Part shown: positions 1,192 to 35,290 of the stretch, piece after piece | Layout: every line of letters starts with the position of its first letter | Numbering within the stretch: the first letter of the stretch is position 1 | Source: a virus | Direction: 5' to 3' (one strand) | Virus record (IMG/VR): IMGVR_UViG_3300021091_000195 | Coordinates: 1 to 36,889 of that record | Length of the DNA stretch: 36,889 bases | Program-made: the position numbers and the translations under genes | Notes under the pieces: model-generated | Told to the model about the DNA's origin: nothing | Seen by the model: only the letters and a program-made list of their open reading frames with translations | Database searches by the model: none

Positions 1192-1791
1192 TTATTGAAA
1201 TTCCATCCATCCTGTCATTATATATTTAGCGCCTGAGAGCGGGGGATTACCGCGGTGGGCCCAAGGAAAGTTAGGAGGAAATATAATTATTCGACCTTTT
1301 TTAGGGGGATATCTTTTACTTAAATATATAAATTCTGTCTCTCCCCCCTCTTCTACCTCATTTAAATAAACAATATAAACCCCTACTCTTCTCGAATAAG
1401 GAACATCTCCATCTTCACAATGCCAAACATGATACCCTTCCCCGGGTAAAGTCTTCTGAACTTTATACGAATAGATAGTATGCTTGGCATACTGGGCTAG
1501 TACGTCGAATTTTTTAAGATAAATTGGATAACATACATCCCAGAACGCTTTATTAAATTCACTAATAACCGGGGTTAAATTTTCATATGTAAAGTTTATT
1601 TCTTCAGAGGTTCTAGGATTAAGGACGGTGGAATTATCACTTTTTACTGAGGAAGCAGCTTCATTTCTTTCCCAGGTTTTATTGTTTACTGCACACCACT
1701 CATAATATTCAATTACCCTATCACACCAGGTAGGGGGTAGATAGTCATCAAATACACCTACAAAATTATCATCAATAGTATATGAACTCAT
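1192..1791 (-). CDS. 2OG-Fe(II) oxygenase, HxE variant
   Basis: A 199-residue protein of the 2-oxoglutarate/Fe(II)-dependent dioxygenase (prolyl 4-hydroxylase-like) superfamily. Candidate iron ligands are H124 and E126 in YHVWHCEDGD and the distal H179 in FPWAHRGNPP. K189 (GAKYIMTGW) is the likely 2-oxoglutarate carboxylate contact. The usual HxD is HxE here. The core strands RRVGVYIVYLNEVEEGGETEF and GRIIIFPP fit the jelly-roll fold. T4-like marine phages often carry such genes among tail fibre genes, but substrates are unknown; hydroxylation of a fibre or host surface protein is a guess. It lies two bases from a second, more canonical oxygenase (1794-2399). The fold assignment is firm, the substrate is not. 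Confidence 0.88.
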   Translation of the reverse strand: MSSYTIDDNFVGVFDDYLPPTWCDRVIEYYEWCAVNNKTWERNEAASSVKSDNSTVLNPRTSEEINFTYENLTPVISEFNKAFWDVCYPIYLKKFDVLAQYAKHTIYSYKVQKTLPGEGYHVWHCEDGDVPYSRRVGVYIVYLNEVEEGGETEFIYLSKRYPPKKGRIIIFPPNFPWAHRGNPPLSGAKYIMTGWMEFQ

Positions 1792-1793
1792 AA

Positions 1794-2399
1794 TTATCTA
1801 AATGCGGGCCCTGTTATCCAAACTACCAAACTTATTCTAGTACCTTTAGTTACTGGTGTAACTCTATGTAAGATATAGCTTGGAAAAGCTACAACCAAGC
1901 CTCTTTTTTTTGTAACGGTAGTTATTAACGAACTACCGTATAATTCTAAATCACCGCCCTCGTAATCTTCGGGGTCAGAAAGTTGTAAAACCATGGAAAG
2001 TTTGCGAGGAGCAAGAGTATTTTCTGGACCAGAAGAAGTATCTATGTGCCAGGTATAGTGACCTTTATCATCACTATTATAAATGGTAAATTGCATGTGT
2101 TCATTAAAACCAAATAAATCATATCTATAAAATTTACCATTTAAACATCTTGCAATATAAGCTAATCGATCATAAAGCCAGCTTGAATCAGCAGTAAGAT
2201 CAATCCAAGATGTACTGGAAGTTCTTATATCAGGGGAAATTATATTAGAACTTGAGACCTTTGCAGCATCTATTTGACGAGATTTACCGATAGAAATAAT
2301 ATCTTCAATTTCTTTATCGCTAAATCCATTTTCCCAAGTGACATAAGTATGATCCCCCGTACCATAGGTAGGAGACGGGGAAAAAATATATGTAGACAT
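1794..2399 (-). CDS. 2OG-Fe(II) oxygenase, PKHD type
   Basis: A 201-residue 2OG-Fe(II) oxygenase with a complete canonical centre: H118 and D120 in HYTWHIDTS, distal H178 in SYILHRVTPV and R188 in GTRISLVVWITGP. The layout HxD...H...R with LSMVLQLSDPEDYEGGDLEL matches PKHD-type hydroxylases. It is probably cytosolic; no signal peptide is visible. It sits directly upstream of the HxE oxygenase and downstream of the collagen-like Gly-X-Y protein. Because prolyl hydroxylases act on collagen-like sequences in other systems, hydroxylation of that neighbour is a testable idea, but nothing in the sequence proves it. The two oxygenases are distantly related, so a recent tandem duplication is unlikely. 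Confidence 0.9.
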   Translation of the reverse strand: MSTYIFSPSPTYGTGDHTYVTWENGFSDKEIEDIISIGKSRQIDAAKVSSSNIISPDIRTSSTSWIDLTADSSWLYDRLAYIARCLNGKFYRYDLFGFNEHMQFTIYNSDDKGHYTWHIDTSSGPENTLAPRKLSMVLQLSDPEDYEGGDLELYGSSLITTVTKKRGLVVAFPSYILHRVTPVTKGTRISLVVWITGPAFR

Positions 2400-2437
2400 A
2401 TTTAAATTATAAACTCAAATCAAATTTTATTCAATAC

Positions 2438-3910
2438 TTATTGCCTATTCCAAGATACTTGAACGCTACCATCAGTTACCCCGCCACCTACAGTGAGAGC
2501 TACTTGTTGTCTTCTTGAAAAATTTACAGCTGATTGTGAGTTTGGAGCTGTATTAGTTCCAGGTTGACCTAACCCACCGGCTTTACCAGGCCATGTATTA
2601 GGCGCGGCTTGACCTGCAGTTCCATTTGTTGCACCAGTACCGGGTAGGCCAGTTGGTCCTTGCCCACCAGGCTGCCCGGGCTGCCCTTGGGCTCCTGCTG
2701 AACCAGCTTGTCCTGGGGAACCTTGTGTACCTAAAAAACCGCCATTACCCCCTGTACCGCTTATTGCATTATATATTATATAGCTATACCCATTAGCAAG
2801 TGCAGTAAGAGTTTGTGCTCCACTAGAGCCACCTTGCCCTCCGTGGCCGCCAAGCTGTGAGACACCTGGGTTTCCGGGATTACCAGCCACAACATTGGTT
2901 GTTAGAGAAGAGCCTGCGTTTGCTGGACCGAAAAAGATAAAGTTACCAAGAGGATTTGTACCTCCTCCATTACCACCACTACCCCCTGGCCCGCCAGGTC
3001 CTCCGGCACCCCCTGATCCGGGTTGTCCTCCTGTGCCAGGTTGCCCACCGCCTCCCGGTCCTCCAATTCCCCCAGGGTTACCTGCGATACCGCCTTGACC
3101 CCCTTGACCGCCTGGGCCACCAACGCCAGCTGTACCGCCTTGACCTCCGGGCAAAGGAGAAGCAGCAAAGTTTATATTTCCAAACGCGGAAGGATTACCT
3201 GCATTACCGGCCGATCCAGGCTGACCTTGGGTTCCAGGTTGTCCTTGCCCGCCAGGCTGCCCGGGCTGACCATTAGCCCCAACGCTACCAGGCCAAGTGT
3301 TAGGGGCTGAAAACCCGCTTTGGCCAGGTTGGCCCCCGGTTCCGGAACCGCCACCGCCACCTGAGCTACCTGGATTACTAGGCTGGCCAGCGCTACCTGC
3401 CCCGCCTGACTGCCCTGGGCCCCCGGTACCGCCACTGCCCCCTGGACCACCCGGGGGCTGAAATATATCTCCCCCAATCCCGGAACTACCACTAGTAGCG
3501 TTAGAGTTTGTATTCACTGAAACAGGAGCCCCAAACGGAGCGGAGTTATAAGGGGCGTTAGTTACCCCACCGCCACCGCCACCACCACCACCTGATCCAG
3601 CTGGCAGACTACCTTGGCCGGGGTTTCCAGCACTACCACCTGGGCCGCCTTGGCCCCCTTGGCCCCCTTGACCGCCTGGACCTCCAACCCCGTTGTTACC
3701 ATTAGTCCCTGGTTGTCCTGTTGCACCAGGGGCCCCATCATTACCGTTCGCACCAGGGCCGCCAGCATTACCCGCTCCAGGTCTAGCAACCACGCTAGCG
3801 GTTCTTATACCTAAAGGCGCTTGAAAGGTAAAATTACCTGCTGTATTGTAAGACGCCTGGCCCCCTGGTGCTATCGAACGTCTTAATGTACTTGCGAACC
3901 CTAAAGGCAT
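2438..3910 (-). CDS. Glycine-rich collagen-like tail fibre/adhesin
   Basis: A 490-residue protein dominated by Gly, Pro, Gln, Ser and Asn. A short non-repetitive head (about residues 1-45, MPLGFASTLRRSIAPGGQAS...) is followed by long tracts of GGPGGQGGQGG, GQPGTQGQPG and similar Gly-X-Y or polyglycine-II-like repeats to about residue 455. A compact tail ends GGGVTDGSVQVSWNRQ. Gly-rich repeats of this kind occur in T4-like adhesins such as gp38-type tips and in marine phage fibres, and form extended triple-helical or glycine-sandwich structures. It is likely an exposed receptor-binding or fibre component. The high-GC repeats create several shadow ORFs on both strands. Neighbours are fibre genes, a thioredoxin-like gene and two oxygenases. 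Confidence 0.8.
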   Translation of the reverse strand: MPLGFASTLRRSIAPGGQASYNTAGNFTFQAPLGIRTASVVARPGAGNAGGPGANGNDGAPGATGQPGTNGNNGVGGPGGQGGQGGQGGPGGSAGNPGQGSLPAGSGGGGGGGGGVTNAPYNSAPFGAPVSVNTNSNATSGSSGIGGDIFQPPGGPGGSGGTGGPGQSGGAGSAGQPSNPGSSGGGGGSGTGGQPGQSGFSAPNTWPGSVGANGQPGQPGGQGQPGTQGQPGSAGNAGNPSAFGNINFAASPLPGGQGGTAGVGGPGGQGGQGGIAGNPGGIGGPGGGGQPGTGGQPGSGGAGGPGGPGGSGGNGGGTNPLGNFIFFGPANAGSSLTTNVVAGNPGNPGVSQLGGHGGQGGSSGAQTLTALANGYSYIIYNAISGTGGNGGFLGTQGSPGQAGSAGAQGQPGQPGGQGPTGLPGTGATNGTAGQAAPNTWPGKAGGLGQPGTNTAPNSQSAVNFSRRQQVALTVGGGVTDGSVQVSWNRQ

Positions 3911-4256: not shown

Positions 4257-5273
4257 TTAAATAATAACATCCGATATTGCATGAGTACCGATGTATCTGA
4301 CCCCACCGTTAGGTGAAAAGAAAGTTAAAACATCGGTATTTCCAGCTAATATTGATAGCTGTGGTAAAGCATTTTCAGTATAAACAGCACTGGTTACGTT
4401 AATAGTATTACTACCAAAAACCTGGGTAGCAATCAATGTAATTGGCATTGTAAAGGGTACCGTAGGGTGGTTGGTAAAAGTAAAGGTAACATTACCAATT
4501 AGGTTTGCTCTATAAATGTTACCTTGAGAAAGATCTATATTAACAGTAGCTCCAGCAGCGGTTCCAATGTTTCCAAGATTGGTAATTAGCTCTTTATAGC
4601 TAGAAACATAAGCATTGCTTATTGCAGAGTTTGTAATAGTAACGTTAGCTATGTTACCGGTAACATTACTACCTAAAACCGTGTTTATAATAGTAGCGTT
4701 AGCTATGTTACCGGTAACATTACTACCTAAAACCGTGTTTGTAATAGTAGCGTTAGCTATGATACCGGTAACATTACTACCTAAAACCGTGTTTGTAATT
4801 GTACCGTTGTTTATTGTTCCTTCCAGTGTACCGCTTACATTACTACCTAAAACTGAATTGGTAAGTATAACATTACCTGTAGTATTATTAAGTAAAACAT
4901 TAGATACTATAGAACCGTTAATTGTAACATTGTTTAGGGTAAGGTTATTACCGGTAAGGTTATTAATAGAGGCTATACCACTACCTCCTGTAGATACAGC
5001 TGTACCAGTATTGCCTAAAATAATAGCGTGAAAAGACTGCGCAGCGTTAGGTGCATTTGTAAATAATAAATTATTACCATTTACGTTATAATCAACCGCT
5101 GGCTCTAAAACCTGTCCGTCTAATACAGCAATCATCACGTAAGGGGAACCAGGTATAACAGCTTCAGTCAGATAAGTTATCGCAAAAGTATTTGTATTAG
5201 AATTGAACTGCGCTTCTATACTGTCTATTTTACGAAAATCACCTGATAGGGGTGCTCTACCAATATAAGCCAT
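4257..5273 (-). CDS. Tail fibre protein with 18-residue repeats
   Basis: A 338-residue fibre-like protein. The N-terminus MAYIGRAPLSGDFRKIDSIEAQFNS (to about residue 100) resembles the conserved head domain of marine T4-like structural proteins. The centre carries repeats based on NTVLGSNVTGNIANATI, three close copies plus a longer 22-residue divergent copy, a pattern typical of beta-helical or pentapeptide-like shafts. The C-terminus (about 225-338) includes NIDLSQGNIYRANLIGNVTFTFTN and resembles the fibre end domain found in many phages. It is likely a distal fibre or tail-tip component. The repeats are encoded by 54-bp near-identical DNA units, so copy number can change by recombination. 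It lies between two small structural genes and the thioredoxin-like gene. Confidence 0.75.
   Translation of the reverse strand: MAYIGRAPLSGDFRKIDSIEAQFNSNTNTFAITYLTEAVIPGSPYVMIAVLDGQVLEPAVDYNVNGNNLLFTNAPNAAQSFHAIILGNTGTAVSTGGSGIASINNLTGNNLTLNNVTINGSIVSNVLLNNTTGNVILTNSVLGSNVSGTLEGTINNGTITNTVLGSNVTGIIANATITNTVLGSNVTGNIANATIINTVLGSNVTGNIANVTITNSAISNAYVSSYKELITNLGNIGTAAGATVNIDLSQGNIYRANLIGNVTFTFTNHPTVPFTMPITLIATQVFGSNTINVTSAVYTENALPQLSILAGNTDVLTFFSPNGGVRYIGTHAISDVII
4627..4860. repeat. 54-bp tandem repeats inside fibre gene
   Basis: The block acctaaaacc recurs at 4671, 4725 and 4779, a period of 54 bases (18 codons). A further diverged copy at 4845 is spaced 66 bases away. Units share cgttagctatg-taccggtaacattactacctaaaacc with few mismatches. 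All spacings are multiples of three, so the reading frame is kept. These are coding repeats and not a CRISPR array. Confidence 0.9.
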
Positions 5274-34765: not shown

Positions 34766-35048
34766 TTTACAACTCCACATCAGCTCGTCACCATCGATAC
34801 TATCTAAGGCCACCTTCTGAGGTAAGGAGATAGTCACCAGGCAAGGACTTACTAATTCGTTCTGGTTGATTCTGTTGCCAAGTTCAACCAGAAAAACTCC
34901 GGTCAGCGTTTAGGCTGCCAGTGCAAATCTTTCGTCGTTTGCGTTTAACGTTTTGTTTCTTCGGCTGAGCAGTCCCAACCCTAACGGCTTTCACATTGCC
35001 GAGTCGTCTATCTCTCTACTCATTGCCCTGTCGAGTCTATTCACCCCC
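34766..35048 (-). ncRNA. tmRNA coding piece (tag-bearing)
   Basis: The 5' end is set at G 35048 by acceptor-stem pairing. The piece holds the D-like TCGAC, the tag frame (34942-34910) and a strong 9-bp hairpin TCTGGTTGA/TCAACCAGA (34884-34892 with 34861-34869) just after it. GTAAG...CTTAC and other short stems that could form pseudoknots come next. CAATGAG and ACGACT near the 5' end can pair with TTTATTG and AGTCGT of the acceptor piece, which would form helix P2. The 3' end is not visible; AGTTGTAAA at 34766-34774 before a T-run is a plausible boundary. Confidence 0.85.
34910..34942 (-). CDS. tmRNA proteolysis tag ANDERFALAA
   Basis: A resume codon GCA (34942-34940) starts A-N-D-E-R-F-A-L-A-A followed by TAA. 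The TTAAAC just before it and the LAA end match tmRNA tags in general. The C-terminal ALAA is the ClpXP recognition end. With the alanine loaded on the tRNA-like part the tag would read AANDERFALAA. The ANDER-F/Y-ALAA form is typical of betaproteobacteria, unlike cyanobacterial tags. Confidence 0.88.
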   Translation of the reverse strand, partial: ANDERFALAA

Positions 35049-35094
35049 ATCAGAAGCATACCACACTACTGCAACATACAATTAGATATGCTTT

Positions 35095-35290
35095 TGGTGG
35101 AGGTGGGGGGATTCGCACCCCCGTCCAGAACACTTTTCAATAAACTTCATACGACTATAAATTAAGCATTCTACAACGGTGTAAGTACAATCGTTTACCA
35201 CTACAGTAATCGTTAACTTACCGTATCTACCCTTTGTAGATAGGGACGTTAGTTAAACGTCTTTCTCTGCCATGCTTAAGTTATAAACAG
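35095..35290 (-). ncRNA. tmRNA acceptor piece
   Basis: The 3' end is CCA at 35097-35095 with discriminator A 35098. The T-arm (35106-35122) and acceptor strand are clear. Upstream, AGTCGT and TTTATTG can pair with the coding piece. Further upstream are a perfect 7-bp hairpin TATCTAC/GTAGATA, a 6-bp hairpin GACGTT/AACGTC, GTAAGT/ACTTAC, and a long-range 8-bp stem TTAAGCAT/ATGCTTAA (35272-35279 with 35162-35169) enclosing them. These may form a pseudoknot-like domain. The mature 5' end is uncertain; 35290 is the expected late-promoter start. Confidence 0.82.

Follow-up and report, generated by a model that had tools for sequence, protein, structure and literature searches.

A candidate tail-adhesin cassette in a phage: a Gly-X-Y protein linked to two 2-oxoglutarate oxygenases

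Introduction

The closest described counterparts of the locus analysed here, in which the gene for a glycine-rich Gly-X-Y protein (P0003) is followed by two 2-oxoglutarate (2OG) Fe(II) oxygenase genes (P0002 and P0001), are prolyl 4-hydroxylases (P4H), PKHD-type hydroxylases and glycine-rich phage tail proteins. The locus lies on the IMG/VR virus record IMGVR_UViG_3300021091_000195 (positions 1-36,889; this whole stretch of 36,889 bases is referred to as the window). By sequence, the solved structures closest to P0001 are the P4H of Bacillus anthracis (3itq, 5hv0) and of chlorella virus PBCV-1 (5c5t), and those nearest to P0002 are the PKHD-type hydroxylases PiuC (9ghl) and Sbal_3634 (3dkq). 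A passage of PMC8968730 gives X-Pro-Gly as the P4H site and reports that the B. anthracis enzyme prefers Y-position proline in synthetic collagen peptides. Among tail proteins, fibre gp24 of phage Pam3, as described in part of PMC9608196, consists of a TNF-like domain and a glycine-rich receptor-binding tip and requires a chaperone; gp38 of Salmonella phage S16 likewise joins such a tip to a TNF-like or other domain. For mimivirus and chlorella virus, passages of PMC8968730 and PMC9301287 describe hydroxylation by virus-encoded enzymes that act on Gly-X-Y or other viral proteins; the latter paper calls the viral use of prolyl 4-hydroxylase cryptic. For non-animal collagens, a passage of PMC3368898 states that no preference for Y-position proline was found and that the enzyme is absent from bacteria and viruses. 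Meanwhile, 2OG-Fe(II) oxygenases occur widely among aquatic phages, and a role in DNA repair is proposed for them in a passage of PMC9146016.

The locus resembles each of these systems and departs from each of them. P0002 shares the HxD...H...R centre with PiuC and Sbal_3634 but, unlike them, is linked to a phage adhesin and a second oxygenase. P0001 has a lysine ten residues after the distal histidine (+10), as do the B. anthracis and PBCV-1 enzymes; a 2OG-binding lysine at this place is a prolyl 4-hydroxylase feature. It differs from these two P4H in having an HxE centre, where theirs is HxD, in being phage-encoded and in being paired with another enzyme. P0003 is, like Pam3 gp24 and S16 gp38, a glycine-rich tail protein, although its Gly-X-Y part is much longer and holds many Y-position prolines, no N-terminal helical shaft is predicted and an oxygenase pair is adjacent. 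Mimivirus and chlorella virus, in turn, infect eukaryotes, have no phage adhesin and show another gene layout. Hydroxylases next to a Gly-X-Y protein in phages were not found in any report in the open-access PMC full text, a search that does not extend to subscription papers. Virus-encoded hydroxylases beside a Gly-X-Y protein are already known in kind, and the phage adhesin case is new within the open-access literature searched.

Adhesin and oxygenases occur together

P0003 (positions 2438-3910, 490 aa), P0002 (1794-2399, 201 aa) and P0001 (1192-1791, 199 aa) are transcribed in this order from the minus strand of the window, which carries T4-like baseplate and tail genes. The three genes are separated by 38 and 2 bases and sit within the tail-gene cluster, apart from the DNA metabolism genes. 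An earlier note on this DNA had described two 2OG oxygenases beside a 490-residue Gly-rich protein, and this is borne out by the open reading frames (ORFs), by matches to Pfam 2OG-FeII_Oxy_3 above the cutoff (1.5e-10 for P0001 and 9.1e-17 for P0002) and by the glycine periodicity of P0003. Contig L167 comes from the same virus; its oxygenase genes are identical to those of the window (0/606 and 0/600 bases differ), and its P0003 differs by two base and amino-acid changes.

Related loci were surveyed from three anchors, namely, oxygenase relatives, the adhesin N-terminus and the neutral gene P0005, and the adhesin family was recognised by the signature LRRTIxxAG at the N-terminus and W-x-x-Q at the C-terminus. 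When anchored on the oxygenases, a Gly-X-Y ORF was present in 32 of 160 loci (one of the searches behind the 160 used P0003), including those of the closest relatives of P0002 (L002-L006) and P0001 (L083-L085); this proportion is only rough because many loci are short, several represent one virus and hits were limited to the best 80. The scan with the N-terminus alignment A3 returned 27 adhesin loci, four of them truncated at the gene or shortly beyond it; in all 23 informative ones, an oxygenase is encoded on the same strand no more than 600 bases away. The same is true of all 19 loci remaining without the A3 seed contigs (L247, L250, L257 and L267), with near-copies among them (L251-L253, L258-L260, L263/L264 and L265/L266) and with a subfamily bias possible because all seeds are oxygenase-linked.

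The best 80 loci around P0005 include 61 with at least 5.4 kb upstream, 40 of which are nonredundant by anchor protein and state. An oxygenase is present in 6/6 of those with a W-x-x-Q adhesin, one being the window's own virus, compared to 6/34 of those without (Fisher p = 2.4e-4); inclusion of L192 and L202, which have short upstream sequences and were admitted only for holding both genes, gives 7/7 (p = 7.6e-5). This anchor served to test whether the linkage merely reflects a shared tail-gene setting; the excess persists, but only three independent pairs, all in favour, are left after correction for relatedness, too few for significance. The nearest foreign contig by P0005 (L168, 83% identical) lacks the adhesin and both enzymes together. 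Searched with its own sequence against viral contigs, P0003 matched only the window's own virus, and tblastn against the phage collection with the low-complexity filter on gave no match. The co-occurrence of the oxygenases with the Gly-rich gene in relatives, proposed as a check in the earlier note, holds from several anchors.

Over all loci, 32 adhesins are distinct in their first 80 residues, and 31 of these are informative, L254 ending its contig. One HxE and one HxD enzyme are encoded beside 30 of the 31, both types having been detected initially in 25 and the rest (L186, L202, L255, L267 and L271) being added by tblastn of gaps and cut ends. The set contains some redundancy: the window's virus is counted twice (L161 and L167), L003 and L004 are one gene differently cut, and L258 and L260 are near-copies. 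The pair stays together, although in variable order, and both enzymes precede the adhesin in L015, L186, L191, L192 and L202. When the 27 cassette loci were clustered by single linkage on the non-cassette proteins that they share, 25 merged, so independent phage backgrounds cannot be counted in this way.

The oxygenases belong to two conserved types

The motif residues are H124-x-E126, H179 and K189 in P0001 and H118-x-D120, H178 and R188 in P0002. All four PDB sequence matches of P0001 are prolyl 4-hydroxylases (best 2.9e-6), as are all six of the HxE profile (best 5.5e-11); the best matches of P0002 are PKHD-type enzymes (3dkq, 5.1e-9; PiuC, 1.8e-8), followed by prolyl 4-hydroxylases. P0002 combines this sequence relation with the H-x-D...H...R centre and is the PKHD-type enzyme that the earlier note had recognised. 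P0001 has the P4H lysine at the distal histidine +10 (K189), but its triad is H-x-E...H instead of H-x-D...H, and because of this it is classed as P4H-like rather than as a standard P4H. The same note had called the centre at H124/E126 unusual; the residues are indeed there, but they represent a fixed trait of one enzyme type, together with the lysine at +10.

Among 212 unique oxygenases collected, 53 are encoded within 2 kb of an adhesin, of which 28 have the residues H-E-H-K, 24 H-D-H-R and one H-D-H-M. HxE is accompanied by the lysine in 81 of the 82 unique HxE-type sequences. Across a tree of 190 rows, with redundancy removed at 95%, only two changes of the HxE state are seen. In this quick tree, with some long branches and two clade supports below 80, the linked enzymes fall into a large HxE clade (21/27 rows, SH-aLRT 89), a smaller HxE clade (5/6 rows, support 53) and an HxD clade (21/26 rows, support 72), with three linked rows outside. 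Five of the six unlinked rows of the large HxE clade (L007, L035, L051, L064 and L086) are near a contig end, and beside the sixth, L087, is a 237-aa Gly-rich protein that lacks the W-x-x-Q end.

A degenerate centre or a sequencing error as the source of HxE was rejected, since the motif is fixed in 28/28 unique linked HxE-type enzymes with only those two changes on the tree. For the same reasons, we regard it as a lineage trait and, judging from sequence conservation, P0001 as probably active; HxE centres are functional in other 2OG oxygenases. The contrary view, that P0001 is catalytically weak or dead and acts as a partner or scaffold of P0002, would be consistent with the nearly constant pairing of the two types and with the departure from the usual HxD. 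We consider it very unlikely, however, given that none of the 28 linked HxE-type enzymes departs from H, E, H and K, where a pseudoenzyme would be expected to drift, that HxE arose or was lost so rarely and that W-H-x-E relatives are also found in bacterial genome contigs.

Another possibility is that the oxygenases are ordinary auxiliary genes, for DNA repair or small-molecule metabolism, hitch-hiking in a variable tail region next to an adhesin that is not their substrate. Besides the repair role proposed in PMC9146016, this would account for cyanophage oxygenase relatives located elsewhere, for example, between gp23 and gp3 and beside uvsW, and for cellular relatives without the adhesin in 79/80 genome loci (the best 80 of 137). 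It is, nevertheless, unlikely in our view: the linked enzymes are concentrated in few clades and follow the adhesin type as a pair, oxygenases are infrequent in the neutral-anchor loci without an adhesin, and X-Pro-Gly enrichment is specific to this adhesin family, as described below.

X-Pro-Gly sites are dense in the linked adhesins

In the 31 linked adhesins (2934 triplets, near-copies included), proline occupies 2.9% of the X and 19.8% of the Y places and asparagine 34.4% of the X places. By comparison, proline occupies 26.7% of X and 2.3% of Y in 14 unlinked Gly-X-Y proteins, two of which (L254 and L262) are members of the same adhesin family on cut contigs. The median number of X-Pro-Gly sites (xPG) per 100 Gly is 14.0 in the linked adhesins (n = 31; p = 2.3e-12 vs other Gly-rich proteins), against 3.0 in other Gly-rich proteins with an oxygenase within 2 kb (n = 22) and 1.6 in those with none (n = 21). 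The frequency of GPx, by contrast, shows no difference between linked adhesins and other Gly-rich proteins (p = 0.29), and the xPG:GPx totals are 765:52 and 166:483, respectively. It is the density of X-Pro-Gly, not Y preference alone, that marks the linked adhesin family. P0003 itself has 24 xPG and two GPx sites and favours glutamine over asparagine in the X place, so asparagine is not a universal target.

Predicted fold of P0003

Glycine makes up 34% and proline 10% of P0003, which starts with MPLGFASTLRRSI and ends with VQVSWNRQ. The longest stretch with Gly strictly at every third residue comprises 21 triplets, compared to at most 13 across 1000 shuffles, and runs of at least six span 237 residues (shuffle maximum 75), which rules out chance as the source of the periodicity. 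The protein had been described as collagen-like in the earlier note; by Pfam this description is weak, the Collagen match being below the cutoff (PF01391, 15.4 bits vs 27.2 needed, E = 0.016).

The AlphaFold monomer of P0003 (pLDDT 44.9, pTM 0.33) has confident strands only at residues 17-43 and 458-487, with pLDDT <50 in the Gly region and no helical shaft at the N-terminus; that of the relative L192 (pLDDT 55.6, pTM 0.42) shows much the same strand pattern. Structural matches to both models span the two protein ends as one sandwich. The top match of the L192 model is Pam3 fibre gp24 (Z 5.7, rmsd 2.3, 83 residues, 29% identity), with the unrelated C4b within 1 Z of it (Z 4.8) and the ALK glycine-rich domain at Z 3.2; for the P0003 model, gamma-carboxylase comes first (Z 7.2), C1q/TNF-type domains score near 5 and Pam3 is not listed. 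None of these matches is decisive at Z <8, and Foldseek of the L192 model gave a best E of only 2.2. Since the ends are predicted as one beta-sandwich, the Gly-X-Y part may extend away from it and return, forming a polyglycine-II-type tip. On these weak, low-confidence models, P0003 may thus be a TNF-like/glycine-rich looped tip adhesin, not a linear collagen rod.

The opposite arrangement, a true collagen-like homotrimeric rod in which hydroxyproline raises the melting temperature as in animal collagen, appears somewhat unlikely. Long unbroken Gly-X-Y runs occur in the family, and those of 137 triplets in L249 favour the rod over the loop; the relative L247 passes Pfam Collagen (31.7 bits, 1.3e-7), and the weak PDB matches of P0003 are mostly to collagens. 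Against the rod speak the subthreshold Pfam score of P0003 itself, the frequent glycine in its X or Y place, and the two ends, confidently predicted only as strands of one sandwich, together with the Pam3 fibre as the top match of L192.

Proposed mechanism

We consider it rather probable that the three genes form a tail-adhesin cassette, in which the Gly-rich tip protein is modified before folding by two dedicated hydroxylases. The adhesin is most likely the substrate, and the residues assigned below to each enzyme, as well as the benefit, are those that we regard as most likely. Prolyl 4-hydroxylase acts on unfolded chains, and both enzymes would act on the nascent Gly-X-Y chain. P0001 (HxE/Lys) would hydroxylate the Y-position proline in X-Pro-Gly, and P0002 (HxD/Arg) would add a second hydroxylation to P0003, on X-position asparagine or glutamine or on other prolines. 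The outcome could be a receptor-contact tip that is more stable or binds differently. The modification within the operon suggested in the earlier note gains from the co-occurrence and the X-Pro-Gly enrichment, whereas a linear collagen helix is doubtful on the low-confidence models. A broader version, in which the cassette moves between phages as an adhesin-finishing system, with two hydroxylases acting on Y-Pro and X-Asn/Gln of a polyglycine-II tip and infectivity dependent on oxygen and 2-oxoglutarate, is possible but tentative.

Several observations weigh against the proposed cassette. Linked loci had already been seen when the N-terminal pattern and the C-terminal signature were picked; the independent neutral-anchor pairs, although none is contrary, are too few for significance; and relatives of both enzymes exist elsewhere without the adhesin. 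L054, with the HxD type only, is the sole exception to the pairing, and L192, with both enzymes, has one Y-position proline in 24 triplets. In addition, when the collagen-type L021, L022, L025, L026, L037 and L038 are removed, the other Gly-rich proteins still have an xPG:GPx ratio of 127:50, and some of the Y preference may for this reason come with the glycine-rich fold.

The linkage ties one subset of oxygenases to a definite candidate substrate, an X-Pro-Gly-rich adhesin. If the cassette functions as proposed, phages modify receptor-binding tips post-translationally, the claim in PMC3368898, in the passage quoted above, that bacteria and viruses lack Y-Pro hydroxylases needs revision, and such tips produced in Escherichia coli without both enzymes would be incomplete. 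Should the modification of both positions also hold, this would be the first known hydroxylation system for a bacteriophage adhesin, again within the open-access literature searched, and would account for some of the many 2OG oxygenase genes of phages.

Related arrangements in phages and bacterial contigs

The exact cassette was not seen in the 12 regions read, eight of them from isolated phages, of hundreds with oxygenase matches. The nearest by arrangement among these regions is in the cultured pelagiphage HTVC033P (L280:1817-7300), where two 34%-Gly proteins, one of them tested as Gly_rich_2 (PF21722, 2.4e-27), are followed by two annotated 2OG oxygenases; the Gly-rich proteins hold few X-Pro-Gly sites (6 and 7). 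In cyanophage S-RSM4, likewise cultured, a fibre with a short Gly-rich stretch is followed by an HxE oxygenase, and the oxygenase homologues of S-RS29 and Syn33 lie between head and tail-completion genes.

For bacterial genome contigs, a qualifying Gly-rich gene was found only at L289 among the best 80 of 137 HxE-type loci. This 11.6-kb contig, filed under a Verrucomicrobiales metagenome-assembled genome (MAG), encodes a 359-aa Gly-rich protein ending in VSWEAQ (L289:4419-5495) along with oxygenase hits, and may be of phage origin and have been binned with the MAG.

Other combinations were also encountered. L177:1-5956 encodes a collagen-like fibre (PF01391, 6.1e-20) that carries an S74 chaperone domain. 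After it come two glycosyltransferase-family-2 proteins, of which one has DUF6445 and the other a methyltransferase domain, as well as an HxD oxygenase; L175:2399-5956 contains the same three enzymes. From gene content, this layout suggests that hydroxylation may be followed by glycosylation. Long phage collagens with Y-position lysine are encoded at L021:1-2895 (86/265 triplets), L022:2-2869 (133/244) and L025:2-2872 (138/247), each with an HxD-type oxygenase roughly 0.8 kb away; lysyl hydroxylase acts at X-Lys-Gly.

Genomic neighbourhood in the window

All features flanking the cassette are on the minus strand. It is preceded by a gene for a tail-fibre-like protein (4257-5273; phrog tail fibre and virion structural matches) and by P0004 (3913-4239), which encodes a 108-aa protein immediately before P0003. 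It is followed by a 98-aa gene (873-1169; weak tail or unknown phrog matches), the last before a terminator-like hairpin (833-856) of 10 pairs with a T-rich tail after it. That the three cassette genes share a transcript, as the earlier note had it, is plausible from the short gaps and from the hairpin coming one gene beyond the oxygenases. A promoter-like site falls within the 38-base gap, such sites being not clearly above chance (17 found in total vs 12.5 +/- 3.4 expected), and the TATAAATA late-promoter motif is at chance level (5 found vs 6.7 expected).

Alignable relatives of P0004 occupy the same place in L003, L084, L085 and L054 and lie just after the adhesin in L002. Family searches found no family match for P0004, and a role as a glutaredoxin-like helper was dismissed for lack of support, the glutaredoxin match having an E of only 0.58; a chaperone like Pam3 gp25 would be a guess. 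Elsewhere in the window, ARAGORN detected a permuted phage-encoded tmRNA (34819-35187, minus strand) with the tag ANDERFALAA, which scores above the cutoffs of both Rfam tmRNA_permuted (131.9 bits) and beta_tmRNA (96.6 bits), and from which the host of the virus may be betaproteobacterial.

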